From contig OY811984.1 in the NCBI GenBank assembly GCA_963681505.1, forward strand, positions 2,722,272-2,786,271: a DNA stretch of 64,000 nt, written 5' to 3'. The DNA comes from Eunapius fragilis. Taxonomy: Eukaryota; Porifera; Demospongiae; Spongillida; Spongillidae. Shown here one piece after another: positions 34,180 through 55,145 of this stretch (position 1 is its first letter; every line of letters begins with the position of its first letter). Under the pieces are notes generated by a model. The model was not told where the DNA came from. It made no database searches and was given only the letters and a program-made list of their open reading frames with translations. Both the position numbers and the translations under genes were made by a program.

Positions 34180-34862
34180 ATGACGCAATATTGTTCAGTA
34201 ATGTCCCAACCGAACTATATCCTTCTTACAGATGTACCTACAGAACAGATAAGATGTTTAGCTGCGTGCCTTGATCAAGCTCCACTCTGTGAGCTTGTTG
34301 ATAGTAACGGAAACGACTCTATTTCAGATGAAAACTGGAGAAAACTGATTAAGCGTCTGGCCAAAGCTGACAAAAAATATAACAATTTATTGGAAAAGTC
34401 TTATATCCAAAGTCTAGAAAAGGAAGCTTGGAATTTGAAAAGCCCATCGTTTAAGTTGCTTGAAGACTTAAAGGCTCGCCGACTCGACATAAAGCTCTTC
34501 CGCTCCTGTCTTGAACACAAGGATGTTCACTGCGAATCTGCGCTCAGCGTTTTAAGTGATGAGAGTAAGTCCCATGTATTGGGCTGTTTAACCGTACTCC
34601 CTTACAGATGGTGCGGGGGGGAGGGCTTGGAAACATGACGTCCCGGTTAACAGATATAACACAAGCCTGTCCAGTCCGGGGGGTACTTAAAAGTCTGTCC
34701 TTGGGATATAACACAAGCTTGTCCAGGGGTGGTTAATATACTGTCCCGGAGGTTAAATAATGGAATAGCCATTTTAATGATGGTATTTACGCCGTGAGTA
34801 CACGTGCATCAGGTAGCCAATGGCAGCAATATCCTTGAATATGATGCAAGCTGTTTCATAAT

Positions 34863-34904
<42 letters not shown>

Positions 34905-34986
34905 CACACACATAACGTGCACGCACACATACACACACACACACACGCACACGCACACACACATGTACACACTCATAACGTGCACG

Positions 34987-35059
<73 letters not shown>

Positions 35060-38000
35060 CAACCACCCACAGTGATAGCACAGCCAGAGAGTGGGGAGGT
35101 AGAAGTAGAGGTTGGAGGTAAACTGAAGCTGGTCTGCAAAGCACAGTGCTCACACCCTCAGTATCAGTGGTTCAAAGAGAAAGAACCTCTTGTGAAAGCA
35201 ACCTCTGATACTTACCTGGTTCCAAGAGTGGACATTACCCATACTGGCCAGTATACCTGCAGAGTCAGAAACCCTCTCATGGCTGACTCAGATAGGGCAT
35301 ACACATTCTCAAGAACCATCGACGTCACTGTGCTGCCTTTTCCTGTTGCCCCTATACAAGGTAAGTAACACAATTTGTCTGCAATGCATTGATGCTATGA
35401 ATGAAGCTTGTGTACATTGCTTGTGTACATTCACTTTACGTTGACGCCTTGTCCAGTTGGTTCTGCACACTTATTTCATGTCTTTGGCTTTCAGTAACAC
35501 CTGCATAACATTGTACGTATTCTCAGTGCATAAGGATATAAAACTGCTTTCTTGTTTTCAGAGACTAATCCTATACCTATGCAGCCACCACCAGTTATCC
35601 AAGTTGAGCCCAAATCATTGACCACTCAATGGGGCTCTGAAGCGATGTTGTCGTGTAAGGTTGATGGAGTACCTAGTCAGGTGATTACCTACAAATGGTT
35701 CAAGGGGGACCTCAAAGAGATTTCTTGTAGCAGTGCAGAACTGAGGATACCTCGGGTTACATGTGAGGATGAGGGCCAATACCGCTGTGATGTCTTCAAT
35801 GGTACAGTGAAGATTGGATCTGACCATGCAACCATACATGTCCAGCTAGGTAAGTTGTTTCTGAACTCCAACCAAACACTTATTCATGTAGGAATTATCG
35901 TACAACTGATACTGTTGCATTGCTATACATTTGCTGTTTTTTTCAGAGGAAGAAGATTGTATTGAAATCACTAAGCAACCTTATATACACTCCGGAGGAA
36001 ACACCGGTGTTAGTCTGTCATGTGAGGCTACTAACAAAGCTGGGAAAGAACTTGTCTACCAGTGGTTTAAGTGTGAGAAGAAAGGTGACAAGCAAGGTAT
36101 GGTGTGTGTTTGTTGTCATATTGGATCATTTCATGCTATGGGGGGTGGGGAGGAGGGGGGTTATAGTTATCGGAAACTGCAGCAACCATGATGAGTGTGA
36201 CTAAAACACTGACTTGTGAAGAGACAACTGAGAATTGGGCCCAGTTTCATGTTGGTATGCTTTTTGGTATCAAAAATACTTGTACCCATTTCTCATATTC
36301 TCCTTGGTCATCATCATCTGCTTTTTTTTCAGCACTTATAAAAATTTGGTACAAAAGAACTACAAACGTACAAATACGTATTAACATGGTACCTTTATGT
36401 GTTAGATACACCTTTAGTGTATAATAGTAGCATATGTGAAAAAGACCAGCTTTAATCACCAGACTGCTCTTACATACACTTAATGTACATTAGTATATAT
36501 ATGCACAATGAATACTACTGCGCATGTGCGTGCATTATGTCACAATGTCTGTACGCTACATTACTCCCCCTCCCTCCTCCTTTGAATGGTTCGACATTAC
36601 ACATCATAAATATTCTGTCCCAATTTATCGGGCTTTCTGCGGCTTTGTGTTGATCTTCTTGGCACAACTGATTCTTGTCCTTGTTCTGCAACAATTGGCT
36701 CAGCTAATTCTTCAGCAATTTCTTCTCCCAGTGCAAGCCTGCTGTTGCTCGACCTCCCTGTCCTCTTGGACTACTACTTCCTGGGGCTCAACAGGAACCT
36801 CCTCATGGTCCAGCGGATCATTTCGACGCTGATCAGGTATTTTCCCAGGAACAATTTCAATTTCAATGTCATCTTCCTGCTCGCCATTACTCGAACATTG
36901 AGGAGGCAGTACTTCTTGTTCTTCATCCCTCTTTGAAGAATGTACGTAGGGTTTCAACCTGTCAAAGTGTACGACAATTTCTTTCTGGGATGATCCCTGT
37001 GTTGGATTTTAAGGAGTACTTTCCCTAGCACATCTATCACCTTATACGGGCCCTGCCAGTAGCGATGAAGCTTTGCCGACTTGCCTTTTGGCACAGCTGG
37101 ACAATGGAGCCACACATGATCACCAATTGCATACGGTGATCCATTTGTCGTTCTGTCATATAGAGCCTTCTGACGTTGCTGTTGTAACTGCAGACGGTTG
37201 TGAACAAGCTGATAAGCCTGCTCCATGCGAAACCGCATGTCCTGAGCGTATTTGTTCACCTGCATAGGGGAAGAAGGGAGACGAAACATTACATCAGCAG
37301 GAAGGCGTCCTTCTTGTCCGAACATCAAATAGAAGGGCGTGCAGCCAGTAGATTCCTGCACACTAGTCCGGTATGCCATCATCACCATTGGAATATGTAA
37401 GTCCCAGTCACGTTCATTCTCTGAAACAGCCATACTAAGGAGGAGTACGGTTGAATCTCTCGACCAAACCGTCTGATTGAGGGTGGTAAGGGGTAGTTCT
37501 CGTTTTGACTACTCCCAGTAGCTGGCACACTTCCTTTAGCAATGCAGATTCGAAATTTCTTCCTTGATCGGTGTGAAGAACGTCTGGCACACCAAACTGG
37601 CACACAAAACGCGACAAATAGTTCAGCCACAGTCCCAGCTTCCATATTAGGGGTACGCTTCAACCTGTTTTGTTAAATAGTCCCCCACAACCAATACATA
37701 CTTGTTACCTCTGTTGGTTAGTGGCAGGGGGCCCAAGATGTCTATGGTAACTCGTTGTAGAGGACACTTGGTAAGGTCGCTCTGTAACGGGGCTCGTCTT
37801 TTTGTTGATCAATGGAGATTTTCTAGACGCGCACATCTTTTGCACCAGTCTTCTACGTCTTTGCGTTGGCCTGGCCAGTAAAACACCAAAAACACCAAAC
37901 ACCAAACACCAAAGCCAACATTTCTCGCTAGTGGCACAGTACTGCTTTTCAGCTTTCGACAAAACCCTGCTAGCATACGCAATGACTTGCTCGTGTCCTT

Positions 38001-41000
38001 CATGTGCAGGATGGCACCGATACCCTCCTGGCTGGCATCAGTATCCACAACAAATGTTCGGTCAAACTGTGGAAAGGACAAAATGGGTGGCAGTAACAAC
38101 TTCCCCTATAAACTGGAAAACGCTGCTTCACACTGTTCTGTCCATTGCCAAGACTTCGTCTTCTCCGTCAATGCATGCAGGGGAGCTGCTATCTCGGCAA
38201 AGTTCTGGATAAACTTTCTGTAATAGGAGGCAAATCCAAGAAACTGGCGCAACGTTTCGTGATTATTGGGCACTGGCCAATTTTTAACACAACTCGTTTT
38301 CAGAGGATCAATCTCAATGCCTTTCTCAGACACCACGTACCCCAGATATTGAACACTTTTGCGAAACAGTTGGCACTTACTAGGTTTTAATTTCAAGCCC
38401 GCTTCATTTAACCTCCTGAGCACGTCTGCCAGGCGAGTAAAGTGTTCCTCCACTGTCTGGCTAAAGACGATTATATCGTCCAGGTAAACCAAGCAGGTAC
38501 TCCAACTTAGACCAGCTAATACCAAGCCCATCAACTTTTGAAAGGTGCTGGGTGCATTGGTCAACCCAAAGGGCATTACACGGAACTGTTGGAGACCAAA
38601 AGGAGTAATGAACGTGGTCATCTCTTTATCAGAAGGATCCATATCCACCTGCCAGTATCCGCTGGCCAAGTCAATTGTCGAGAACCATTTTGCTCCTGCA
38701 AGGGTATCTAATGCATCGTCAATTCTGGGTATGGGGTGTACATATTTTTTTGTTACATCATTGACACGACGATAATCGACGCAGAACCTTTCTTCTTTGC
38801 CAGAACTATGGGCGATGACCATGATCCATCAGCTGGTTCAATGATCTCTTGCTCTAACATTCCCTGGATCATTTTTTGGACCATGTCTCGCTGATGGAAA
38901 GGCAGCCTGCGAGCCTGCTGATGAAGGGGCAAAGCATCCCCAGTATTAATCTTATGACGTAATACCCGTGTCCTTCCCAGGTCCCCATCCCCAACAGAAA
39001 TGACATCAGCAAACTCTCGTAACAGACTCTTGAATTTAGTGTTTTCTCCCACGGTTAGGCCCTGCACTTTACTAGCCATTTCATCAATTGTCTTACGGAT
39101 AGCTTCCTCTGAACGCACTGTTGGTTTCTTATCCAATGATGGTTCTACCAGCCTCACCGTGTCCGCTTCCTGCAAAAAATGACAGCTTACCTATCTTTTC
39201 CTGGCTGTAAAGGGTCACTGGAACAGGTGTTGGATTTATCAACTGTACTGTTGTCTTCCCCCCGTAAATTGGAGATACAGAGTGAGCACCCATAACACCA
39301 CCGTGGTCTTTAGCAAAGTCTGTTTTAGGTTCAAACAGACCAACATGGCCCGGAAAGTCTTCATCTGATGCCAGGTCTACGGGAAGCTGGACTTGATGAG
39401 AAGCAGGAATAACAACTGTTTCCTTAACAAGAACATGACAAGTACAAGCACAGCCTCCAGAGAAATGGTACAGGTGTCACATGCCCCGCTATTGTTAGTG
39501 TTCTACGACCCAAGTCAATAACACAATTGTGTCTCTCCAAAAAGTCTGTTCCCAACAGACATTCTTGTGTCATTTCTTTTACAACAAGAACACTGTGCAC
39601 ACCAACATGCTCTACCACCTTCAACAAGACGTCACCTTGTCCACTCAGAACAAGACTTTCACCATTCACTGCCATCACTGGATACTTAGCTGGACTGAGC
39701 TGTTTCTATCCCCTCACCACAGCTTTCCAGACGTTCTCGTGAAGAAGGGTCACTGATGAACCTGTGTCAACTAACATGTGGGTGGTGTAGCCTTCTACAG
39801 CACCTTTTAGGGTAAAGCGTACACGCAACCGCCGAGGTATGCCTTGCTGACCTGTCTCCGTTTCCGTTATCCGCGTTACCTGCTTGAAGCTGTGGACAAT
39901 TTCGACGCACATGACCTGGTTTCCTGCAGTGCCAGCAATTCACCCTTCTCGAGTACTTTGTCTGGTGTTCCTGTTTGAGCAGGCTGTCTAACCACTGCGT
40001 CAATGATGTCACCTGCGTAGCTAATTCCTGGTAGCTCCTGCTGTTTCCACTTGCCGTTGCAGCGTTAATGCCCCTTGTAGTATCTTCTGAAGGAGTTCCC
40101 ACCTGTTTCGCTGTCTGCAGCATGCCCTGGGCTGACTCTATTGACTCCAATTGACACGCAAGTGTGACAGCACCGCCAAATGTGTTGGGCCTCTCCTGCA
40201 TAAGTTTCAACTGGATGGACGAAGATATAACACCATTAATAAACTGGTTACAAGCCATTTCGAGTCTTTCATTTGCTTTCCATGAAGGGAACGCTTTATC
40301 AGCTAACATACGTAACCTTCCAGCAAACTCGGTCAGGGATTCTGTACTCTTTTGCTGTGCTGCATGCAGCCGACGCTGCCACTCCAATTCCACGCCAGCC
40401 GCTGAGAACTGTCTCTCAAGGCATGTCTTCACTGCTGTGTACTCAACTTTGTCAGCACAACGCAAACCCATCTGACTTACGATTCGAAATGCATCGTCTT
40501 CCAGCAGTGAGACGAGTTCCTGGCCTTTCGTTTCATCGGGTATCTCCGCTTCTTTCATGTACAGCTCTACTCTCTGAATCCACAGGGTGAAGTCTGTTCC
40601 AGAGACAAATCTTGCCGGCGGCCTCACACTGAACCGAGCTGTCTTCTTCTCATCACCCATATCCCACTTCTGACACCAATGTGACAAAGACCAGCTTTAA
40701 TCACCAAACTGCTCTTACGTACACTTACATTGGTATATATATGCACAATGAATACTACTGTGCATGTACGTGCATGATGTCACAATGTCCGTACGCTACA
40801 CATGCATGTAGGTCTCGTTATGCATACTGCCTTCTCAAACCTGTCAGTGCTAGTTAAGTGTTCCCGTGATACTGCTGCCTCTGCTACCTCTTCGAAGCTA
40901 GCTTCCTTATCCAACAGTCTACTCTTCTTGTTCTTAGAAAGCAGTGGGTATGGCTTACTGTTTGTCGAAGAATTTGCCTGCAACATGATGTTTTTAAAAT

Positions 41001-44000
41001 TGATCCCGAAATACCAAACTTGTATTACTTGCGTTGGTATTTTGCTCAATGCTTTATATGTTTATTTGACCCCTAAACATACCATGTGGATAATATTCTG
41101 ACGCCTTTTCTTAAAGCTGTTCCTAGCTTCAGCTATAAGACATGGAAGAAGACAACGACCAAGGAAAAAATGAGATTGAGTACGGGTTGATAATTTTTGT
41201 TCTATAAAACCGTGCCATGTTATGACACAGAGCCAATGTAGAATTGTTCATTTTTGTGTTATCATTCTATTCCAACAAAGTGGGAAGTGATCCGATTCTT
41301 TTTTTTTTTATTTTATCACATTTTAATGGCATTCATGATTCTGCATCAATGGAACCTAGCTGTCACAGGTCCTGATTCTTTTTCATAGGGTGTGGTTCCG
41401 TGTGTTAGAGTAGTGACTAGTACATTTTCTCTCCATAGTTTTCCTTGGCAATACCTATCAATGTAAGCAACCCACCAAGTCTTACGTCACAAAGTTCTAC
41501 TGTCAAGTGTCATTAAAAGATAAGGATAAAGTGTGTGTGAAGTCCAATCCAGTTAAGGTTGAGTCATGTGAGTGTAGAGGGTCTGTTATGGCACACAATT
41601 ATTTGATATCTTGTTTGTTGCAGCGTGGTTTACCGTCCAACCAGCAGCCGTTCATGGTCGTACTGGAGAGAGTGTCATTCTACGCTGCCATGCAGCATGC
41701 TGCCAGCCAGACGAAAAAATTTTATATGAATGGTTTATGTCAGCCAATAATGAAAAGTTTTCTTTATGTAGCCCTGCTAATGGATACTTGCTTAAGGGAG
41801 ACTCAGGTGAAGTACTCATGATCGAAAACCTCTCAGACAAACATGTTGGATATTACAAGTGTGTAGTAAATACACAAGTAACATCAGACATAGTTTATGT
41901 TGAAGCTGCACTGCATAGCTCTGCAGGTGGGAATAGAAAAACACGAAGTTAATCGAATTTTTAAAAATATTTTTTGTTCATTGTCCTTCAGAGGATGTTC
42001 CCACTATCAGCTTCTCCAAACAGCCTCATAACTGGGCTGTTGATTTAGGAAAACCCTTTAAAATTACATGCAAAGCCACTGCATCTAGAGGTGGAGTGAC
42101 CTATCAGTGGATAAAAGATGGCCAGGTTCTTGATGACGAACGGAATAGTGAACTAAAAAGGTGTGGTATGCTATTGCTTGTTGTTTACAAAGTTTTCCAC
42201 AATTAGTATTTTTACCCACATGTAGAACTTCAGCAAAACAAACTGACTTTGGTTCTTATTATTGTCTTGTGAGAACTGTGGATGGAAATAGTGTTGCCAT
42301 GTCTGGCACTGCACGAGTTGAAATTTCAACATCGGCTGGTAAGTGGCATTATGCAAGGAAGGCTATATACATGTAAGTACAGTGAAATGATCTCAGTAAT
42401 GAAGCTTGTTGATAACATTTATGATGATGTACAAAATATTGTATTGCGAAAAACATACAACCTTTTTATCATACACATATTAAAACCAATTCTCTAAGGT
42501 AAAGTTGGCAGCATATAGGATTGGAAGGCAGTGGCGGTGTACAAAGCATGGGAACAAGGTTGAGTGAAATGGAAAAATGAATTACACGTATATATAATTG
42601 TACATGTAAGACACTGTATAAACTGGTGTGTACTAAATATTATTTGTTCCCATGCTTATATCCCAGAGAAATAATCTTGTCCAAGATTTTGCCAAGATGG
42701 CAAGATTTTCACTTAGATCTGAAATAAAACTGAAACCATGATATGTATGGGTTTGAAATCAATATGCAATCAAGGCGTCCATTTTACACCCCATGGATCG
42801 TATTAATTTCATGACCACACACACATTTCTATCTATTCAATTATGTCTAAAAATGCACTTTTCAATAATGCTAAAGAAGGAAATGGATGTGGTCATTACA
42901 TTAATAAAACCCATAGCTAGGATGGATGCCTGATTAATTTCAAACCGACATACATATCATGATTTCATAATCTAAGCGAAAATTTAATTTTTCCATTGGT
43001 TATTGCACTCCAATCCTATATGCTACCAACTTTCTCTTAGAGAATGTTTTTTTATTGCTGTTTCATGAGTTTTGTTCATGAGATGAGAGATAATCAGATG
43101 GATAGAACATCTTAGTAACTTCACTATACCAGTGGTGTTAATCTATAAGTGACACAGATCTTGACAGGTCCAAGTAGAGCAAAGGAACCTATTAATTAAG
43201 GAACAACCAACTTCCATTGTCTGATGCAGACAAACTATGCATGCTAGAAAGATAATTTAAGCATTGTTGGATAGAGAATTCAACAGAGATTACAACCATA
43301 TTAACCATAGCAAATGTTGTATGAATTCTGGTACTGAAAGCTCACTTTTCGGCAAACATACCTTAATGTATGGGATAGGTACTGAATAAGGAACAACCAC
43401 ATCAAAGGGTTGTTATATAAACACACAGCTGCATGGGGTTTGCCTTGGGGAGGGGGGCGGGTGCTACCTGTTTAAAAATGAAATCTTCAACTGAATTGTA
43501 GTCTAATTATGGCCATAAAAAAGCATAAAGGCTATTCTCCTGAGGTCGCTATGAAAGCCATAGTATTCTTGAACTTAAGGGGTGTGGGGTGACGAAATAA
43601 GAGGTATCGAAGCTGCAAAGGCACTAGAGCCTGAGGAGGAAGGCTGTTCGTTTAATTTTATTGTGCTCGACATCAGCGTTGAATGTATATCTATAGTAGA
43701 AACAGTTGCATCCAGCACTAGTTAGTGGGTTAATCAGATTCATTGATCTGCGCATGATCTTAAAACAGTAAACCCATAATGTTGATTAAGATTTTTAATG
43801 AGTTTAGTGTTCCTTAATAGGGGTGTGTTCCACATTCGGTTCCTTTGCTCTACACACTTAGAGTCATTTTAGGGCATTTACACTTCTCATTTCAAAGGTA
43901 CATTGTTGATGTCTATGGCACATATGTACATTCAATTCCAACCAAATGTTGTGTTTTCAACTGAATTCAGCATTCCGCTTAGAATAACTAACCACATACA

Positions 44001-47000
44001 TGTAGCTACCTCAAAGTACTGCTGAAAATGAAAATGGTCTTTTTCTCTATGGTGCATACAAAGGCCATTACTAGGGGTTCAAAACTTCTGCAGGAGCATC
44101 CAGATTGTCTCAAATTTTGTGCGTACATACTGATAAGTTCTGTCTGTTTGATCCATCCTGTTTATAAATTTTTACTTTACCCAAAAGATACAGCTGTGCA
44201 GAGTGTGTACCCATTTTCCTGCTTGATGCTCACCACAAACAGCAATCTCATCAGTGTATGAGAAGTGGGTGCCTAAATCATTTGGGTGAATCAAACAGGG
44301 AAATATGCATGTTCTTTGCACTGCTATATCTTCATCATGTTCAGATAAAGTAACAGGATGTATCAATGGTGACAGCTTACTCTCCTATGTATATTGTACT
44401 GCTTTTTGAACTATGAAGGGTTTGGACAATCCTATGTTATGAACCCCTAAGGGGAATGCCCGTTGTATGTTCCCAAAGGTAAAGACATAAAGGATATTAG
44501 ATATAAAATGATGTATCTTGATATCTGGTAAATATCCCAAAACATTCATGCAGTATAATTTTGTCATGAGCTATCTCAAGTTATATATAAATATTTCCTA
44601 TTGTCTCTCTGGCTTAAGGTGGTAGCCATCGCTGATAAAAGATCGTCATTATTAAAACTGTCTCCAGTTTAGTGATACAAAAAGCACATGGCAGTTCCTT
44701 ATGCTTGCGCGTTTAAATGTAGGAGCCATATCAATTTAATTCTCCCCTAATAGAAGGCGGCTAAAGGTACAATAAATTATGGTGTTATACTAAACCCCGC
44801 TTATAATAATTGAGGATTGTATTTGTGTGAATGACTTGTTAAATGTGACAAAGACGTGTTGTTTATCATTTTATGTTCGCAGCAAAATAGCATTTCCGAC
44901 CTAGAAAACATACTTAAATATATTGGAATCATCACTGAGGAGAGAAAATAAATTTCCCGTTTTGAAGACAAAACTGAAATTAATTTATGTTTTGTCAGCC
45001 ATTTTTTGGGCATGCACACACAAGGACATGCACACAAGCATGACCACGCGCACATGCACACATAAGCATGCATGCACACACACTAAAATATAACCGTAGA
45101 TTGAACCAAAACAGTTGTAGCATGAAATTGAAACAAGCCGGCTTGTTTCAACATTGTTCTACTATACATGCACAGATATAAATTATGATGGATGTACTGT
45201 TCCGACGGCAAACTTCAAGTGTGTAAATTGTACTGGTAACATAGACTATAATATGAAAACAATGCTTTTCCTATTCACATAATTATGATACTTCCTAATT
45301 ATTTTTATAAATACGTTTTCATATATATTTTGTTTGCTATTCAGTGCTCAAAATACTTTGTAATAGTTGATTGGCATAGTTGCTAATCAAAATGGATTTG
45401 ATTAGCTAAAGGTCAGCTTTGTGTAGTAGTGCATTACTTTCAACATGTAACACAAGGATTGTATGCACATGTTAGTCTAACCAATAATGGATTTAGATAT
45501 GTGCACGTGATAGACAACCGCGATGTAAAAGACCGTGCGCGCAGGTTACGTGCATATTGAATGAATAATGTGCATCACAAATGTTGCTACACAAAATCTA
45601 ATTTGTATTGCAAATGACAAAAAACGCATCACAAATTGCGATGCGATACCGCTTAATTTGAACTCTGCTATTTCATTCTTACACAGCTCAGGAGAAAGTA
45701 GCTCTTCTTATTGGAAATGGGAGATACAAAGATATGTCAAAACTTGAAGGCATTGAAGATGACATTAGAAAACTGAAAAAGGCTCTTACTGACTTGGACT
45801 TCAAGGTCATTTCTCTCTTGGACTTGACATATGATGAGATGTTGAAAGCTCTGCAGCAATTCTACAGACTTCTGAAATCTGGCATCTATGCAGTGTTCTA
45901 CTTCTCTGGGCATGGCTTTAGATACTCTGAAATCACCTATCTTATGCCTATAGATGCCACTATAGATCCGATAAAGTGTGACAGTAACATATCATCCAAA
46001 ACAATTAAGAGCCATATTAGTTTAACTGGAGCAACAGGGCTAATCCTTCTTGACTGTTGTGCTGAGAGGTAAGCCATGTAAGGGACAAACCATGTAAACA
46101 TTTCAGTAGCACTACTAAAGTTGAATGTTATATGTCATGATGTGAATTTGTATAGTGGATACAGTATCCAGGCTCCAAGAAATAACACATCAAGTATTAC
46201 AGAAGTTAAAGATTGTTATGAAATCTCAGCTTGGTGAGATGTCAATCTTTACAGCAACACTCATTTAGTCAGTTCTCTGTAGCCTTGAAGGGAGTCGTGC
46301 ATACATGCATACATTCAACGATGCTCTTGTTGAGTGTCTTAAAAAGAAACTCAAATTCCATGAACTTGGCCCTCAGATGCAAGATGGTAACACTATCATT
46401 CTATTGTCTTTCATCAATGTGTCGTAATGACTATTTATTTTCCATCACTTTAGTCATGAATCGTTTATCCGCCAGCAATAAGAAACCTGTTCAACACCCC
46501 ACTGCGTCAGGCCTACTCCTGGATTCAGAGGTCACTCTTCATGATCCAATTAAATTTGGCAGTGAGGATGCTGAGGGGCACAGTGATTTCCTCTGTGAAC
46601 AATGTGCCAAAGCCAATCGTAAGATATTGCCATCCTTATCTCTACCTGGCAATTAGTCTTTGCTGTGTCACATACCCCTCCCCTTTCCTGTCACATCTCC
46701 CTCCCTTTGCCTGCCACATATACCTTCCCTTGCCTGTCATATACCCTTCCCCTTTCCTGTAACATGCCCCGTACCTTGTCTGCCACACCTTCCTGTACTG
46801 GCATAACTTAATGATATTATCGCAGGTGTTCCTGAGACTGCTGTCTATCCAGATCAAATTACTCTTTGCTTTTCCGCTGAGTTTAGCAATGTTCTGAATG
46901 TTGAAGTGGTATGTCCATTGCCAAAAGGGAGTATCGATGTGGACATCGAGAAAGAGTTTATGGTATGTCCATAGCATTAAAGTAAATTCAGGGTTCGTAT

Positions 47001-50000
47001 GGGTTTTTCATTCCTGCAATTTCATATTCAAGGGCCTGGAAAAGCTACATGTACATGTATGTGGTATTGTATTGGGGCAAAAGTTTAGTTAATCCTTGCT
47101 AGTCTGCTTGTTACGTTGCTTCTACCACCGTCAGTATACATTTAGTGTGCTAATGCATCTACCTGTAGTTATTGGGTGTTATTTGTATGTGCATGTGTTA
47201 GTTTTGTTGCACATGTTTAGTTCCTACTGATGAGCGCGCAAAATCCTTGCCAGTAGTATACCCGCACAAGAAAGTTGAAGGTACATTAATAGTGTACTAC
47301 CATAGATATTGTAGTAGAATATCTATGGTAGTACTAGGTGCGTGCAACATGTGCACTTTCATTACAATGCATTGGATTTGTGATTGTTGTGTACATACAT
47401 TATGCAGCGGCGGATCCAGGTTTTAGGGGGCGGGTATGGATGGTGGGTGTGGCTGCGGGGGGGTGCTGTCGGTTTCTGGCCTGATACAAAAAGTGGGGGG
47501 GGGGGGGGGGGGGGGGGGGGGTGCTGTCAGTTTCTGGCCTGATACGAAAAGCGGGGGGGGGGGGGGTGTGGTATGATCGCGTATCAGGGGGCCCGGGATA
47601 TAGTACAGTAGTAGAGTTCATGTGTACGGATATCAATAGGCAGCGCAAGCGTGCAGTTATTATTATAAAATGCGGCCCGAAAAGTTATGAATTTATATAT
47701 AGAAGGGGGGGGGGGGGGGGGGGGGCACGTGCCCTGAGTGCCCCCCTCCCAGATTCGCCACTGTTATGTTTTGCATCACATGTACATGTAGATGGTACAG
47801 CAATCTGTAGTTGTATGCATGTACAGGGTGATTGGAAAATCTTGAATTGGTAGAACTGGTATAACTCCAGAGCTGAGCATGAAAAAATTATGCATCCAGT
47901 GATTAATAAAAGGTTATAAATTAGTAGTTATAAAAGTTACTGCTCAGTTTATTTAAATATGCAATTCTGGATTTATACCATTTTGCGCAACTTTCCAATC
48001 ACCCTGTACATGAAGGCGTATTGCGATTGACAAATAGGCAGAAATAATTCTATTGATGAAGAACGAGCCTCAGATGGCAAACGCTTTGTAGTACGTGTAC
48101 CTACATGTGTGTCAAATCACTAGTACAGTTATGTTGTATTGAATTGTGACAAAACGTTTTGGGTTTTAGTTAAATCCTTGCTACTCTACTTGTTACTATA
48201 GCTTCATTAGGTTGGATGCTACAGTTTTTAAAAAAGCAGTCCCTGATAGAACACATTGTTACACAGCAGAGTCATTCAGTTTGTTACACTATTATAAATA
48301 TATATTCAGGTCTATTTGCATTAATTGCACACTTGGTAATAGATCTAATGTCATTATGCCCTTTCTTACTTAATACATTAGAAAACGTCATGGGTAAACA
48401 ACTTGATTGCCATACACATAGGCATAAAACCTGAGTGTTATATACATGTACATGCTTTCCATATGCTCAGTTTGCAGCATCAGCGATATGGTTTAACAGA
48501 GCATCTCCATATTTTATACAGACTCATAATTTTTGGTACTTGTTGTACAATGGATTTGTGATTGTTGTGTACATGTTCCGCGCGAAGCAGGAATTTGCGC
48601 AATCCTTGGATTGCGCTGCACAATCTAGGAATCCTTACTTTCAATCCAAGGATTGCGCACCATATTCCAGAATTGCGCACATTTCTGCGCGAAGCAGGGA
48701 TTTGCACAAAGCAATCATAGGCTTGCGCAGCATGATCTAAGAATCCTTACTTTGGTGCAGAAATGTATTGCATAGTATAGCATAGTATAATGTATGTTGT
48801 TGCCAGCACATAAAATCATTGTGTTCATATTGATACCAAACTGAAACAGTTGCGACAGAGAACTATGAGCAGCCACTACAATACCAATCACCCGCGCGTG
48901 AAGCTACAAAGCCCACACACATGTAGTGAAACCACTTGCCACATCTGTCACAGGCAACCATATCATCATAAGAGCCTGGCAGTCGACAGTCACAGTACAA
49001 TTTTATAAACTCCCCTGATGGTTTGCAAGCTCTTTTCACCTTGGATGACATGAGTGGAAACCTGCTGAACTTCTCTTTTTCAAAACAGGTTACAAGGTGG
49101 GTCCTCAGCTTATCCTGATCAAAAGTGATTGTTTGCAAATCATCTCCCAGCGCAGCATGATAAGCGAAGGCTATGGCAAATGGGCCACAATCAGAGACTC
49201 CTTTCTGTTTTTGCACAGGAATATGATGAACTGTCAGCCCAACATCCTCAACACTGCCCTTCAGATGGCCGTAAATCCTTGCCAGTTGTTCTGCCAACTC
49301 AGCACTGAGAGTGGTAGATGAGAGGCTGTTGTATAGACTAATGACTCCATCCAAGAAGGTGGACACCACCCAGTGGTTTTCATTCACAAAGTGAATCTGT
49401 ACAGCTATGACGAAGAGGTCACATACAATTTATACATTTTAAATCCAAATATTTAGAATTTTCAGCATTCGATGGGGCATATAAGTTGAGGGTAGGTTTC
49501 ATTTGAGCTACACATTACAGAATTATACCTAATAGCAGCAACTTACAATTGTCCATGATGGGTACAAAACCATCCATCTGGCTAAGGAGGGTATTTTGCA
49601 TTCCATGAACAGCTGGAAATTGTTGTGATATAAGCTTTCTGGCTGCATTCATGTGCTTGTCACATAATAATCCTTCATTCATGATAACATCCTTATCAAA
49701 CTGATCCAAATCAATAGTTGGAATCCAAATCTGAACAAAGTGCATGCAAGAGGATGAAATCAGAGAGACAGCACTTTTAAAATTTGAGCTGTAAAGAAAT
49801 CACTTTACATGCAAACATGCATGCACATACCTCAGGTTTTCTATCTCTCTTAGGACTCTCCTGTTTTAATTTGGCAACCTGTCCTGGTTGATTTTGGCAT
49901 TCTGAACCCTTGTGACACTTGCTTGTGCAAATGGTCCCACATTTTTTTGCATCTGCATGGATTTCTTGTACAATTAGTCTTGCACTGACAAGAAGATACC

Positions 50001-53000
50001 ATGAAGTCATTTTTGGGGTTGCTCTTAATGGCAGCCTCTCTAAGTGATAACCTAGTTAGAGCCCTTCCAATCTTGTGCATCTAGTCCCAAATCCCCTTCA
50101 TAAACACTCCAAGTCAGCTTCACCAAACAGGTACTGAGAACACCAAATTTGCACCTTCAAGTTTAGTGTGCATTGAATATTTGAAGGGCAATTAAATTCA
50201 CTGAATTGTTTTATACACTGGCACTCACTTTAAACAATAGAGATGAAATGTCTCTCCTAAGCGCTGTACAATCACACATGGAAGTCTGTGTGAATCTGTG
50301 GATGACCGATGAATCCTCGGGATTCGAACACTGACGAAATCTCCCACATTGAATATTTGGATCTGCATATTAAAATCATATACACAAAAATCTAGTATAC
50401 ATGCAAACACCCACATACCCCCAAGTAATATACCTTCTTATTTTTTTCCTTTGGTGTATTTCACTTGCATCCTCTCAGCATTTTGCCAGTAACTTGCATC
50501 TGCCTGTTTTCGAAGTTTTTTGTGCTTATCAGATGTAGCTAGCAAAGAGTTGGCTTTGACTATTCTTTGTGGGGAGTTGTTAGACTTTTTTTCTATTTGT
50601 AACTGATCATCTGATTCTGAGACATCCTGAGCATGTGATTTGGAAAGATGCTGAGTGTCTGATATAGAAGGAGGCTGATCATCTGATTCAGAGGGAGTCT
50701 GATCATCTGACGGAGTCTGAGCATGTGACTTGGAGCAAGGCTGAGCACGTGACTTAGAGGGAGGCTGATCATCTGATTCAGAGGGAGGCTGGTCATCTGA
50801 TTTGGAGGAAGGCTGATCATCTGATTTAGAGGGAAGGTGGTCATTGATTATGTCTTCTAAATATTCCTCCATAATGTTGGATCCACACTTCGCACCTAGA
50901 AAGACTGATTGTCGTGGAGGCTGGCCAAAAACGAACTCATAAGGAGTGGTCTTCACGACCCCATGAAGAGTTGTGTTCAACTGATCTGAATGTCAAGATA
51001 TTTGGAATAAATAAAAAAATCAAAAAAGCATACGTGCAAGCAATTGAGCAACGTACACTGAATAACAAGGAGGAGTATCTGTGTCAGATACAAGGAGACG
51101 AACGCCCAACATTTTCTCCACTGTCCCATTCCCCTGCTCAACAAGGCCCTGGCACTTAGGATTTCTTGGGCGGCCATTGACAATAGTGACTTCACCAGGC
51201 CTGTCCTTACACAAACTGGCCACAATTACATTCATAAACTCACAGCCATTGTCAGAGTGGAGAATTTTTGGTGTTCCTCGGTAACTGAACACTTGATTCT
51301 GAAGGTTAAGAGCCACTTCAGCAGCTGATTTTTGGCAGAGGGCAAAAAGAACATGGAACTTTGACCAGTGGTCCATGTAGTGGCCAATCCATTTGTATGT
51401 CCCATCTGGACAATGTCTCATGTCTATGAGATCCATCTGTATACACCACAAAATCAATGAATATCCACATACACATCATAATCAAACTACACATGGGGTG
51501 GGTAGGAAGTTCGATAAAATTGAATCATATACATGTACTTGTAACTAACTTTTAGCACTACTGACAGCTAGGGGTTTACCTGCCCTCTTGTCATAAATCC
51601 TGATGATACAATGGGTTTCAAGGGACCTCTTGTTGTCTGTGGTTTCCACATGTGACACACAAGGCATAGGGCTACATACTTGTCAACGGCAGATCTGGGC
51701 ACGCACTCAAACAATTTCCCCACTTCAGCTATTGTCTTTTTGTGCCAATATGGCCTTTACTTGTTGCATGGACTCCATGGATGACATCATAGAAGTCCTC
51801 CACAAATGCAATACGCCTCCAGCCAGAGAGAATAGTGGTGTCATTGGGGTTCTGCAAAATAACTTTCATTAATATCTATAGCATTGCCAAGCTAAATGTC
51901 CTAAAAATACAAAGCTTCCCACTTACACTAGTTTTTGCAGGTATACACAGCACACCCTTAAGTCCCAGTGCTGAATGGGATATGAGCTGAAACCCTTTGC
52001 TCTTAACCCAATGCCTGAACTTAGGAGTGTAGTTGTTCATATCCCCTACTTTCTTGAGCAGTTTGATAATGTTCTCTCCTTTAGCTCTGGAGATCGTTTT
52101 GCTTCCTTTGCTGTCCCCATCCATAAAAGTATCTTTGCAGAACTCCTCAAACATCCGTTTTTGCTTGTCCATCTTTCGCTCACCGTATTCCAAGATTGCG
52201 CACGTGCATGCGAACAGATCATGTGCGCAATTCTGGAATACGGTGCGCAATCCTTGGATTGAAAGTAAGGATTCCTAGATTGCACAGCGCAATCCTAGGA
52301 TTGCGCAAATTCCTGCTTCGCGCGGAACATACATTATGCAGCGGCAGATCCAGGTTTTAGGGAGGGGGGGGGGGGGGGCATGATAGTGGGTGTGGCTGGG
52401 GAGTGTAGTCAGTTTCTGGCCCAATACGAAAAGCAGGGGGGGGGGGGGGCTGTAAGTTTCTGGCCTAATACAAAAAGTGGGGGGGGGGGGGGGGGGGGGG
52501 TATGATCGCGTATCAGGGGGCCCGGGATATAGTACAGCTGTAGAGTTCATGCGTACGGATATCAATAGGCAGCGCAAGCGTGCAGTTATTATTATAAAAT
52601 GCAGCCCGAAAAGTTATGAATTTATATATAGAAGGGGGGGGGGGGGGGGGGGGGCACGTGTCCCGAGTGCCCCCCCCCCCCCCCCCCCCCCCCCCCTGGA
52701 TCCGCCGCTGTTATGTTTTGCATCACATGTACATGTAGATGGTACAGCGATCCGTAGTTGTATACATGTACAGGGTGATTGGAAAATCTTTGAATTGGTA
52801 GAACTGTTATAACTCCAGAGCTGAGCATGAAAAAATAATGCTATTGAACCAAAAAACATGCCAGTGATTTATAAATTAGTAGTTATAAAAGTTACTGCTC
52901 AGTTTATTTAAATATGCAATTCTGGATTTATACCATTTTGCACAACTTTCCAATCACCCTGTACATGAAGGCGTATTGCGATTGACAAATAGGCAGTAAT

Positions 53001-55145
53001 AATTCTATTGATGAACAATTAGCCTCAGATGGCAAACTCTTTGTAGTACATGTACCTACATGTGTGTCAAATCACTAGTACAGTTATGTTGTATTGAATT
53101 GTGACAAAACGTTTTGGATTTTAGTTAAATCCTTGTTACTCTGCTTGTTACTATAGCTTCATTAGGTTGGATGCTCAGTTTTTTAAAAAGCAGTCCCTGA
53201 TAGAACACATTGTTGCACAGCAGAGTCATTCGGTTTGTTACACTATTATAAATATATATTCAGGTCTATTTGCATTAATTGCACACTTGGTAACAGATCT
53301 AATGTCATTATGCCCTTTCTTACTTAATACATTAGAAAACGTCATGGGTAAACAACTTGATTGCCATACACATAGGTATAAAACCTGAGTGTTATATACA
53401 TACTTTCCATATTCTCAGTTTGCAGCATCAGCGATATGGTTTAAAGCATCTCCATATTTTACAGACTCATAATTTTAGGTACTTGTTGTAGGTCATAAAA
53501 TTGGTTATGAATCGGGCAGAATAGATACACTGTATACGCATAGAGTTAAATGCATTAGATAAATCTGAGACTAATATGCTAAGAAACAACATTGTTAATG
53601 ATTCCACTGTGACAAAGAGCTATCCATCTCAGAGACTAGCGGTTCAGGGTTTATTGAAAATGGCATGAAAAGTAATCGCTTCAATATAACTCGAATAAGC
53701 AGAACTACATGGAGGCATGGCAATAAATTAATATTTCAGTTGAAAACCCAGTTGCCTGACTGCCGCATGCAGGTCTGGGTGCTATTACAATTAGTCTGCA
53801 GCTGATGTAAACAGTACAGTATGATACCACCATGCAGTTTGTAAGTATAGCAGATTGTAGCCATCATGTATGATCACGTTCCTTGTTGCCAAACCAAATG
53901 CAAACACTGTCAATTTGAATGTACATGTGATGGTCCGGTGTACCACCAGAGGTTACATTACAAAGGAAACTGGATGGCCTACAAAGTATAAGGGTACTGG
54001 ACAAGACATGCTACTAATTAAGAAGTCCATCACAGACATGGTTACTTATCGTGCCTTGAACACTTTAACCTATATCAGAAATAGACGCATGATATTTATA
54101 TGTGCATCTCTTAACACAACTGACAGTGCTAGAGCTCGTTGTATGCACCTACGTCAGTAATAAGAGCCCATTTGCCTATTGATGAACTTTATGCCTATAA
54201 AAAGTTTTATTCGGTTGCTAACTGCTATTTCATGGATCTCAATGACTTTTGGCAGCAATACAATTCAATACAAAACATGGGGATGAGCTCTGCACTCGAT
54301 CAGGTCTGTTTAATTGGTCTCAGAGTATTATTAATTGTTTCTCCTGATTTTTTTTGGCTTTGACATTGTGCCCAAAACAATTGCTCTTTTGGGTCTGATA
54401 TTATAGAGATGCTCTGTTAATTTTTGATCCAATGTGGGGAGATTTGAGTGGTGTGGTATGTATTGACTATAGCAGCAGATGGAGCTTCATTCTTTTGAAC
54501 TTTGTGGTGTATCCATGTACATACTCTTAATCCTTAATTGCATTGACTGCTTCAACTAAATAATGCACCAGTATGTAGTAAATGGTTATTTCATTTCACT
54601 GCACTAAGTGTAGTCATAACACTCCATACTTACCTTTGCTTGATCCATGACCATGTACAACCATATGTTGTACTCTAGTAGTGCCCAAATGTGTGGTCTG
54701 CAGGTGATAGTCTATCTAGTGTTGATTTGGCTCACTCTACTGGTCAAATCACTCATATACTTAGGCTTATTAATAAAATAGTGCCCTTCACATTGTAATG
54801 TACTCAGTGTGGTGGTTATGAAATGTGTGTTAATGGTTTTTATAATGGAAGTGTATAAACCATGAAAGTTCATTCAGTGGAAAAAATTGTTGCATATACA
54901 GTCTTCTCAGAGTGTTGCAGTCACCTCTGAGGGCAGTGATAAAGTCCGAATTGAAGGAATTCAGAGGGCTAAGGTGAGCGAGCAGGTGGCTTCATTTGTG
55001 CTGTTTCCAAGGGTATTCTGTTTCATTGCAGGAACCTCTGAAGCTACGTATGAACGTTCAGGTGGCATCTGTTGAAGGGGGTGTCAAGACTGTCCCTGTT
55101 AACTATGAATTCAAGAACAAATTGCTATTTGGATCTCTTCTATAG
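34180..55145 (+). CDS. MALT1: MALT1-type paracaspase: death domain, five Ig domains, protease, C-terminal Ig-like domain
   Basis: Arg-specific cysteine protease and scaffold of CARD-BCL10-type immune signalling. Fifteen exons: 34180-34564, 35058-35360, 35562-35849, 35947-36096, 41439-41567, 41624-41926, 41992-42160, 42226-42338, 45687-46068, 46156-46233, 46283-46386, 46454-46618, 46826-46962, 54902-54973, 55032-55145. Phases agree, giving 963 residues (human 824). Residues 1-128: death domain (SPSFKLLEDLKARRLDIKLF matches the human DD core). Ig units, each with C...W...Y-x-C: 129-229, 230-325, 326-418, 419-519, 520-613. Paracaspase p20-like 614-800: KVALLIGNGRYKDM, catalytic His689 in YFSGHG, catalytic Cys738 in LILLDCC. 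The tail (ITLCFSAEFSNVLNVEVV) matches the post-protease Ig domain of human MALT1. An alternative start is at 34201. Confidence 0.92.
34863..35056. repeat. (CA)n microsatellite abutting a paracaspase splice acceptor
   Basis: About 190 bases of CA repeats with ACGTGCACGCAC and ATGTACACAC interruptions repeated twice. The last ACACAG of the tract is the acceptor of exon 2. Confidence 0.93.
36435..36560 (-). repeat. 3-prime LTR of the Gypsy element
   Basis: Begins TGTAGCGTACAGAC and ends TTTTTCACA when read on the minus strand, matching the other LTR apart from substitutions and a short insertion around 36480-36490. Contains TATATATA, a likely promoter element. Confidence 0.85.
36954..37663 (-). 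pseudogene. Gypsy integrase region, frameshifted
   Basis: One frame (37435-37617) carries the second Asp motif (HTDQGRNF) and the Glu motif (HPQSDGLVERFN) of the DDE catalytic core. Another (36954-37433) carries the downstream part (AYRTSVQESTGCTPFYLMFG, then GDHVWLHCP and WQGPYKV of the GPY/F-type module). The two frames are offset, so at least one indel lies near 37435. Confidence 0.85.
37809..38099 (-). pseudogene. Gypsy RNase H fragment
   Basis: Carries VVDTDASQEGIGAIL, the first catalytic Asp motif of RNase H, then loses similarity into GVWCLVF and a VFYWPGQRKDVEDWCKRC stretch that resembles the integrase zinc finger end. The middle of RNase H appears deleted. Confidence 0.75.
38106..39175 (-). 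pseudogene. Gypsy reverse transcriptase, one frameshift
   Basis: Two overlapping frames (38753-39175 and 38106-38822). The upstream piece ends with WSSPIVLAKKK; the downstream piece has FCVDYRRVN, FSTIDLASGYWQ, MPFGLTNAPSTFQ and the catalytic YLDD, then FLGFASYYRKFI. The frame changes near 38810-38820. Confidence 0.9.
39424..39912 (-). pseudogene. Gypsy aspartic protease region
   Basis: MLVDTGSSVTLL gives the catalytic Asp-Thr-Gly. The flap and C-terminal region (VKEMTQECLLGTDFLERHNCVIDL) continue in another frame at 39424-39678, so the region is frameshifted near 39690. Confidence 0.82.
39767..40660 (-). CDS. Gypsy gag-like protein with CCHC zinc knuckle
   Basis: An open frame of about 297 residues from the ATG at 40660. 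It includes an N-terminal capsid-like helical region (LWIQRVELYMKEAEI, LLEDDAFRIV, FAGRLRMLADKAFP) and a single CWHCRKPGHVRRNC knuckle. The frame is intact even though pol is not. The N-terminus starts close to the presumed primer binding site. Confidence 0.8.
   Translation of the reverse strand: MGDEKKTARFSVRPPARFVSGTDFTLWIQRVELYMKEAEIPDETKGQELVSLLEDDAFRIVSQMGLRCADKVEYTAVKTCLERQFSAAGVELEWQRRLHAAQQKSTESLTEFAGRLRMLADKAFPSWKANERLEMACNQFINGVISSSIQLKLMQERPNTFGGAVTLACQLESIESAQGMLQTAKQVGTPSEDTTRGINAATASGNSRSYQELATQVTSLTQWLDSLLKQEHQTKYSRRVNCWHCRKPGHVRRNCPQLQAGNADNGNGDRSARHTSAVACTLYPKRCCRRLHHPHVS
40680..40800 (-). repeat. 5-prime LTR of the Gypsy element
   Basis: 121 bp, minus-strand start TGTAGCGTACGGAC and end TTTGTCACA. 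Used together with the copy at 36435-36560 to define the element. Confidence 0.85.
42490..43045. repeat. Long degenerate foldback element in paracaspase intron 8
   Basis: Outer arms TTGGCAGCATATAGGATTGG (from 42508) and its near complement ending 43043. Inner arms CATGATATGTATGGGTTTGA (42738) and its complement around 42950 also match. The whole 555 bp folds back imperfectly with no coding sequence. Confidence 0.65.
43046..45686. other. Remainder of paracaspase intron 8
   Basis: A short inverted pair (GTAGAGCAAAGGAACC at about 43174 and its complement at about 43840) may bound another decayed element containing two copies of AAGGAACAACCA. No coding seen; short (TGCACACA)-like runs near 45010-45080. 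Confidence 0.4.
46985..47065 (+). repeat. Fragment of a CAGGGTTCGTA-type transposon end
   Basis: CAGGGTTCGTATGGGTTTTT followed by GGGCCTGGAAAAGC resembles the dispersed repeat end also seen near 7620. No further element is attached. Confidence 0.4.
47393..48574 (+). repeat. Copy 1 of a tandem 1.15-kb duplication (repeat-rich unit)
   Basis: Starts CATACATTATGCAGCGG, continues through G-runs bracketed by inverted GCGGATCCAGG/CCAGATTCGCC-type ends, then a MITE (47821-48009), then unique sequence to TACTTGTTGTA. It ends with a second copy of its own left flank (TTTGTGATTGTTGTGTACAT). A near-identical unit starts at 52329. Confidence 0.85.
47821..48009. repeat. MITE with GTACAGGGTGATTGGAAA ends, copy 1
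   Basis: Left end GTACAGGGTGATTGGAAA and right end TTTCCAATCACCCTGTAC are perfect inverted repeats (18 bp), with a second inner complementary pair (TATAACTCCAGA). 189 bp, no coding. Confidence 0.88.
48863..49745 (-). CDS. Ginger-like element: C48 (Ulp1) protease and PHD finger
   Basis: Upstream exon about 49745-49545 contains EGLLCDKHMNAARKLISQQF, a conserved lead-in to transposon C48 domains. After an intron, 49387-48863 gives ENHWVVSTF (catalytic His region) and QKGVSDCGPFAIAFA (catalytic Cys with the oxyanion Gln upstream). It ends with a PHD finger: CDCRLPGSYDDMVACDRC, then WFHYMC, then WYCSGC. C48 proteases cleave ubiquitin-like modifiers, and PHD fingers bind histone tails, which could direct integration. 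The reading frame is intact over this part. Confidence 0.8.
49850..50080 (-). pseudogene. Ginger-like element: Cys-rich CxC-type domain, frameshifted
   Basis: One frame gives SCQCKTNCTRNPCRCKK and the other continues KCGTICTSKCHKGSECQNQ. Together they make a dense Cys block interrupted at a run of seven A residues near 49938-49944. A one-base indel there, real or a sequencing error, splits the domain. Confidence 0.6.
50225..50980 (-). CDS. Ginger-like element: linker and GPY/F-like module
   Basis: After TPYEFVFGQPPRQS (end of the integrase region), a repetitive acidic linker reads variants of SKSDDQPPSESDDQ about ten times. It is followed by KLRKQADASYWQNAERM and, after an intron, VGDFVSVRIPRIHRSSTD and LPCVIVQRLG (50416-50225), which has the position and shape of the GPY/F-type C-terminal module of Gypsy integrases. 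Confidence 0.7.
51020..52172 (-). pseudogene. Ginger-like element: N-terminus, H2C2 finger and DDE integrase
   Basis: Exon 52172-51927 starts MDKQKRMFEEF and ends at a GTAAGT donor. The next exon begins at 51851 and carries an H2C2 finger (HGVHATSKGH, then CLVCHMW), but its frame breaks at a five-A run near 51740, where the expected Lys codon is one base short. The DDE core follows on 51457-51020: first Asp in QMDLIDM, second in LHSDNGCEF, Glu in GLVEQGNGTVE. Its overall layout matches KRBA2-like/Ginger integrases in memory. Confidence 0.78.
52329..53492 (+). repeat. Copy 2 of the tandem 1.15-kb duplication
   Basis: Starts ATACATTATGCAGCGG and runs parallel to copy 1 (47393-48547), differing by substitutions and by G-run lengths, and ends around TACTTGTTGTA. 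Its terminal G-run block has intact inverted ends (GGCAGATCCAGG and CCTGGATCCGCC). Confidence 0.85.
52768..52964. repeat. MITE with GTACAGGGTGATTGGAAA ends, copy 2
   Basis: Same inverted ends as the copy at 47821-48009; internal changes include an extra AACCAAAAAACATG segment. Confidence 0.88.
53493..54901. other. Remainder of paracaspase intron 13
   Basis: One plus frame at about 53868-53990 is Cys-rich (CCQTKCKHCQFECTCDG, then YHQRLHYKGNWMAYK) and stops; it may be a transposase zinc-finger remnant, but I cannot assign it. No other supportable feature. Confidence 0.35.

Follow-up and report, generated by a model that had tools for sequence, protein, structure and literature searches.

A predicted five-immunoglobulin paracaspase gene alongside canonical MALT1 in the sponge Eunapius fragilis

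Gene model and domain composition

The stretch analysed here, called the window, comprises 64,000 nucleotides (nt) of Eunapius fragilis contig OY811984.1 (labelled C14), and positions follow its internal numbering unless another contig is named. It holds a predicted paracaspase gene on the plus strand (34201-55145) whose 15 exons, with AG/GT at every border, form a single open frame of 956 amino acids. The predicted protein begins with a death-type domain, followed by five immunoglobulin (Ig) units, then a protease and a C-terminal Ig domain (C-terminal Ig3), both of MALT1 type. A search of the PDB with the first 895 residues placed MALT1 in the best 10 of 60 rows, these being the best 60 of 79 matches. 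Exons 14 and 15, downstream of the point at which a first-pass annotation of this DNA had ended the gene, complete the C-terminal Ig3, whose AEFSNV segment aligns to human MALT1.

That annotation had described a paracaspase with a death domain and five Ig domains before the protease. This composition, with a death-type domain at its start, was borne out by the gene model, by the C...W...Y-x-C pattern found in all five units (with a later F-Y-C visible in the alignment of unit 3) and by Pfam and profile matches. Its exon 2-8 borders, its module lengths (303/288/279/303/282 nt for exons 2, 3, 4+5, 6 and 7+8) and the phase 1 position of every outer border were all confirmed, and exons 4 and 5 taken singly are each also multiples of three. 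Scanned singly, units 1, 2 and 5 matched Pfam Ig_3 with 42.9, 53.9 and 41.9 bits (cut-off 30), while unit 4 remained under this curated cut-off of 30 bits, at 27.1 bits (E 6.2e-6). Unit 3 alone matched no Pfam Ig family at 0.01, the only match being to an unrelated weak family; the Ig matches of the protein taken whole are strong, and its count of five Ig_3 stretches had been made at a lax limit of E 1. Comparison of unit 3 and its partner from a paralog on contig C2 with a profile built from six further Ig units gave a probability of 95.9% (E 6.4e-9), and a death-domain profile against the same target gave 0.1%. The predicted Ig unit count is five, with units 3 and 4 to be taken with care.

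Comparison of exon 1 with the death domains of human MALT1 and of a MALT1 gene on contig C22 by hhalign gave E 1.7e-4 and a probability of 49.8, and pairwise comparison with the human domain gave E 0.010, while two other death-fold sequences reached probabilities of 0.1 and 0.5. The kinship of exon 1 to the MALT1 death domain is only moderately supported. Used as a query against the genome, exon 1 found only the window and contig C20; this query misses even the C22 death domain, so others are possible.

Ahead of the 3' splice site of exon 2 (window 34860-35072) stands a long (AC)n repeat in place of the usual pyrimidine tract, and another AG in frame occurs 15 nt downstream of the site; the length of this repeat may influence splicing. 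The large introns of the predicted model include one of 5.3 kb within Ig unit 3 and one of 3.3 kb.

Table 1. Positions of the exons of the predicted paracaspase gene, of the retroelement in its intron 4 and of the BCL10-like CARD genes
Feature	Position	Strand	Remarks
Exon 1, death-type domain	34201..34564	+	ATG 34201, alternative in-frame ATG 34180; open frame, phase 1 end
Exon 2, Ig unit 1	35058..35360	+	303 nt, phase 1-1
Exon 3, Ig unit 2	35562..35849	+	288 nt, phase 1-1
Exon 4, Ig unit 3, first half	35947..36096	+	150 nt, phase 1-1
Exon 5, Ig unit 3, second half	41439..41567	+	129 nt, phase 1-1
Exon 6, Ig unit 4	41624..41926	+	303 nt, phase 1-1
Exon 7, Ig unit 5, first half	41992..42160	+	169 nt, phase 1-2
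Exon 8, Ig unit 5, second half	42226..42338	+	113 nt, phase 2-1
Exon 9, paracaspase core with catalytic His and Cys	45687..46068	+	Peptidase_C14 1.4e-24; best PDB match MALT1 2.7e-23
Exon 10, protease domain continued	46156..46233	+	78 nt, phase 2-2
Exon 11, protease domain, GSRAYM loop (Met where human MALT1 has Glu500)	46283..46386	+	Splice borders, alignment
Exon 12, link from protease to C-terminal Ig	46454..46618	+	PDB match, splice borders
Exon 13, start of C-terminal Ig3	46826..46962	+	AEFSNV motif common to human MALT1
Exon 14, C-terminal Ig3 continued	54902..54973	+	Kept in C2 paralog; splice borders
Exon 15, end of C-terminal Ig3	55032..55145	+	Stop TAG at 55145; kept in C2 paralog; splice borders
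Ty3/gypsy-like retroelement in intron 4	36434..40800	- (antisense to gene)	Terminal repeats about 36434-36560, 40679-40800
Two BCL10-like CARD genes	C13:6904723-6905022 (L038/L048) and C13:7056441-7056752 (L036/L047)	-	About 152 kb apart

Relatives in the genome and origin of the Ig array

A silicatein query of the genome (24 contigs, 218.9 Mb) gave 95 matches, of which 12 were examined. Among these, L023-L028, which make up four genes since L023/L028 and L025/L026 are one gene each, carry the active-site serine (CGASYAF or CGSSYAF) characteristic of silicatein; L017-L019, L021 and L022 are cysteine cathepsins, and L020 resembles neither. The Antp homeodomain matched seven places, with identities of 49% at most. 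These results agree with a demosponge. A search of the same genome with the protease exon revealed five places: the window gene itself, an identical copy on C20, and relatives on C2 (75% identity), C22 (37%) and C19 (45%, with stop codons). The first 20,000 bases of C20 (1-20000), the portion examined, match window 34076-54085 from contig base 1 onward; the alignment spans 20,019 columns and contains no base mismatch, with 10 gap openings. C20 was set aside as a second true gene copy and taken as most likely an assembly duplicate; the alignment would also accommodate a very young real duplication. The C19 place (L014:7359-8031, -) is a decayed relative, in which death-domain and protease pieces lie about 250 bases apart with no Ig match between them.

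The C22 gene (L012:2945-9003; G000:C22:5392945-5399003), whose exon borders were set by hand, encodes a death domain, two Ig domains, a protease and a C-terminal Ig3 (last exons partly modelled), and is by its sequence a canonical two-Ig MALT1. Its death domain had MALT1 in the best 4 of 23 PDB rows (E 0.002-0.005) and matched Pfam Death at E 0.011, under the cut-off. The best match of its Ig pair was human MALT1 Ig1-Ig2, in one stretch across both domains (93.6 bits, E 9.6e-26); the second row was an unrelated many-Ig protein (1.7e-25), whose total was spread over four stretches, none above 29.8 bits. The death-domain, Ig and protease exons have identical phases in the C22 and window genes, which also share the 78-nt phase 2-2 exon after the protease exon, as well as the catalytic residues. 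The C22 gene differs by its two Ig domains, by a 65-residue Pro/Thr-rich link exon between Ig2 and the protease, and by an intact substrate pocket.

The C2 paralog (L008) carries Ig3, Ig4, Ig5, the protease and the C-terminal Ig3 in the order of the window gene, with identities of 47, 44, 70 and 75% in Ig3, Ig4, Ig5 and the protease, and shares with it the replacement of Glu500 by Met described below. It differs by its decayed Ig2, which by reading of the sequence has lost the Trp and the first Cys although the exon itself remains open with its phase intact, and by another upstream frame. In the 30 kb examined, neither Ig1 nor a MALT1-type death domain was found, and the intron inside unit 3 is short, being placed by hand at 60 nt. 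Upstream of the C2 Ig exons, a weakly death-like open frame was noted (about G000:C2:16457960-16458430, -; Pfam Death E 0.053, below cut-off). This frame is unlike the MALT1 death domain, and may represent a swapped N-terminus or belong to another gene.

A tree of the Ig units, from which the decayed C2 unit 2 had been left out beforehand, had two of its nine inner branches starred, those joining window unit 3 to C2 unit 3 (97/94) and window unit 5 to C2 unit 5 (99/98). The pairing of the fourth units received 86/89, four inner branches remained open, and the program warned of long branches for window unit 2 and human Ig1. Units 3, 4 and 5 of the window gene each pair with their namesakes in C2, as unit 2 does with its decayed C2 counterpart. 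The tree assigns no window unit to human Ig1 or Ig2; when C2 is disregarded, units 1 and 2 most resemble the Ig pairs of human MALT1 and C22. Given these pairings, at least the Ig2-Ig5 stretch predates the split between the window gene and C2. As C2 keeps Ig3-Ig5 and the protease in order, the array did not come about by fusion in gene prediction or by duplication in recent times.

The first-pass annotation had also proposed that the array could grow or shrink by whole exons without breaking the frame. Identity among the window gene's own units is at most about 35% in local alignments, so that no recent duplication is visible; the loss side is visible in the second Ig unit of C2. Recent exon duplication was ruled out, the units being too diverged and their order common to C2. 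On the simplest account, three phase 1-1 modules were added, in whatever order, after Ig2 and before the protease, where C22 has its Pro/Thr-rich link. Most likely, a two-Ig MALT1 gene would have received three Ig modules via phase 1-1 exons prior to the split from C2.

Substrate pocket and BCL10-like genes

Equivalents of the human residues D365, H415, D462 and C464 are present in the window gene. In human MALT1, as described in a structural study (PMC4357240), the P1-arginine is held through hydrogen bonding by Asp365, Gly416, Ala498 and Glu500, with Asp462 also in the pocket. The C22 protein keeps all five of these residues. For the trio Asp365/Asp462/Glu500, it retains 3/3 while the window gene retains 2/3; the window gene and C2 alike have Met instead of Glu500. 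Gly416 and Ala498 were read off the printed alignment, which has a seven-column gap just before the Glu500 loop. The loss of Glu500 suggests either that cleavage is not strictly bound to P1-arginine or that the enzyme is weaker and serves more as a scaffold. The hydropathy profile (top 19-residue mean 1.32, N-terminal maximum 0.93) fits, by hydropathy alone, a cytosolic protein.

Twelve of the 25 CARD places in the genome were examined. For both CARDs on C13 (Table 1), the PDB search ranked BCL10 first (E 1.3e-7 and 4.6e-8); other CARD proteins followed at 0.21 and 8.9e-5, respectively. When the human BCL10 CARD was searched against the whole genome, only these two places were found at E 0.001 (two of three scored candidates), making the C13 genes reciprocal best matches of human BCL10. 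The frame at C13:7056495 continues past the CARD into a Ser-rich stretch. The contact between BCL10 and MALT1 involves Val103-Leu104 and Val81-Leu82, according to a cryo-electron microscopy (cryo-EM) study (PMC6168461), and is conserved only in part; by manual placement, the BCL10 pair Val103-Leu104 corresponds to V-N in one C13 CARD and to V-M in the other. From these comparisons, BCL10 homology of the C13 genes is well supported, and their binding to MALT1 is putative. A CARD9 query for a CARD-coiled-coil partner found nothing in the genome, a search that had no positive control and so shows little.

Proposed working, alternatives and meaning

In the human filament, as seen by cryo-EM, BCL10 forms the core on which the MALT1 death domain sits, with Ig1 directed outward and Ig2, the protease and Ig3 making up a flexible outer zone (PMC6168461). 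The first-pass annotation had stated that MALT1 Ig domains bind BCL10; the cryo-EM contact lies in the death domain instead, although earlier cell work mentioned in the same study indicated that Ig1/Ig2 helped. By analogy, the N-terminal death-type domain of the five-Ig protein would join a death-fold assembly such as a BCL10-type CARD filament, for which candidates are present in the genome. The Ig units would then act as a stalk carrying the protease outward, and clustering would switch the protease on. With five units, the protease would be held further from the core than with two, and could pair over longer distances. Together, the long arm and the changed pocket suggest a specialised branch beside the canonical enzyme.

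The window protein resembles human MALT1 in the order of death domain (putative in the window protein), Ig, Ig, caspase-like protease and Ig3, in the catalytic His and Cys, and in the AEFSNV motif of Ig3. The human protein differs by its two pre-protease Ig domains instead of five, by its retained Glu500, and by TRAF6-binding motifs (described in PMC5978004), none of the searched kind occurring in the window protein. Shrimp LvMALT1 likewise has a death domain, Ig domains and a caspase-like domain, and differs, as the human protein does, in having two Ig domains before the protease and one after it (PMC10748089). Because the gene structure is common to the two-Ig C22 gene, we read five Ig units instead of the usual two as variation within the MALT1 family rather than as exclusion from it. 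The window gene is probably a lineage-expanded type 1 paracaspase (MALT1 family) paralog, most likely MALT1-like in its working, a reading of the sequences that we hold with moderate confidence.

Several observations weigh against this reading. First, exon 1 has no Pfam match, and a profile combining it with the C22 death domain reached MALT1 in the PDB at E 0.19, behind an unrelated chain; the C22 domain alone reached 0.002, so the addition of exon 1 weakens the match. Its single-sequence structure model shows six helices at low confidence, with a mean predicted local distance difference test score (pLDDT) of 44.8. Secondly, the MALT1 pair Val81-Leu82 is not kept: by manual placement, C22 has A-N there and the window gene about L-K. 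Thirdly, the P-x-E-x-x-(aromatic or acidic) motif is absent from all 956 residues. Finally, the retroelement in intron 4 might disturb splicing.

It is unlikely, in our view, that the Ig units serve mainly as a binding array for partners of their own or for foreign ligands, with the protease as read-out and length meaning valency instead of reach. The units are indeed strongly unlike one another. Between the window gene and C2, Ig2-Ig4 (49% amino acid identity each) diverge more strongly than Ig5 (69%) and the protease (75%), as would be expected under changing partners. However, the ratio of nonsynonymous to synonymous substitution rates (dN/dS) against C2 is below 1 in every block tested (Ig2 0.55, Ig3 0.62, Ig4 0.29, Ig5 0.41, protease 0.37), and neither a signal peptide nor a membrane span is apparent by hydropathy alone. 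A MALT1 Ig ligand of this kind is not known, which also counts against this explanation.

We likewise doubt that the five-Ig protein is in decay or has turned regulatory, as a scaffold or decoy that competes with C22 MALT1 and no longer cuts after arginine. The change of Glu500 to Met in both expanded paralogs, the turnover evident in the decayed C19 relative and C2 Ig2, and the element insertion in intron 4 would agree with such a fate, whereas the retained catalytic His and Cys, the conservation of the remaining pocket positions tested, the 15/15 open exons with AG/GT borders and the protease dN/dS of 0.37 argue against it. That two adjacent genes, an Ig gene and a paracaspase gene, were merged into one model is very improbable: the 3.3 kb and 5.3 kb introns are indeed predictions from sequence, but the order of Ig3-Ig5 and protease is the same in C2, and the order and phases of death domain, Ig, Ig and protease are the same in C22.

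The intron 4 element displays two direct-repeat blocks (93 and 94%) and short terminal repeats, with reverse transcriptase, RNase H and zinc-knuckle matches above the cut-off and an integrase match below it. In intron 13 (window 47553-53401), direct repeats of 95-98% identity (47553-48447 and 52482-53401), about 4.9 kb apart, flank a PHD-finger frame (48866-49429, -) and an integrase-core frame (51023-51475, -); a second mobile element inside this intron is likely. Elsewhere in the window, a Sushi-domain open frame was noted at 1967-2620 (-; E 3.3e-8).

MALT1 and BCL10, which are drug targets, act as drivers of NF-kB signalling in human lymphocytes. A 2018 study reported that type 1 paracaspases and BCL10 had not been found outside cnidarians and bilaterians (PMC5978004), and a sponge genome with a full predicted type 1 gene and BCL10-like genes speaks against this restriction. 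In the part of the open-licence literature covered, no report of a sponge type 1 paracaspase or BCL10 was found, which is no proof of absence. We are fairly confident that the BCL10-MALT1 pair predates the split between sponges and other animals, and that this demosponge possesses a canonical type 1 paracaspase and BCL10-type CARDs and then evolved five-Ig paracaspases with a changed pocket. A sponge with both proteins would move the pair back in time and offer an animal without adaptive immunity in which to seek their first function. The five-Ig paralog, having the same scaffold with a longer arm and an altered pocket, would provide a natural test of the role of the Ig stalk.

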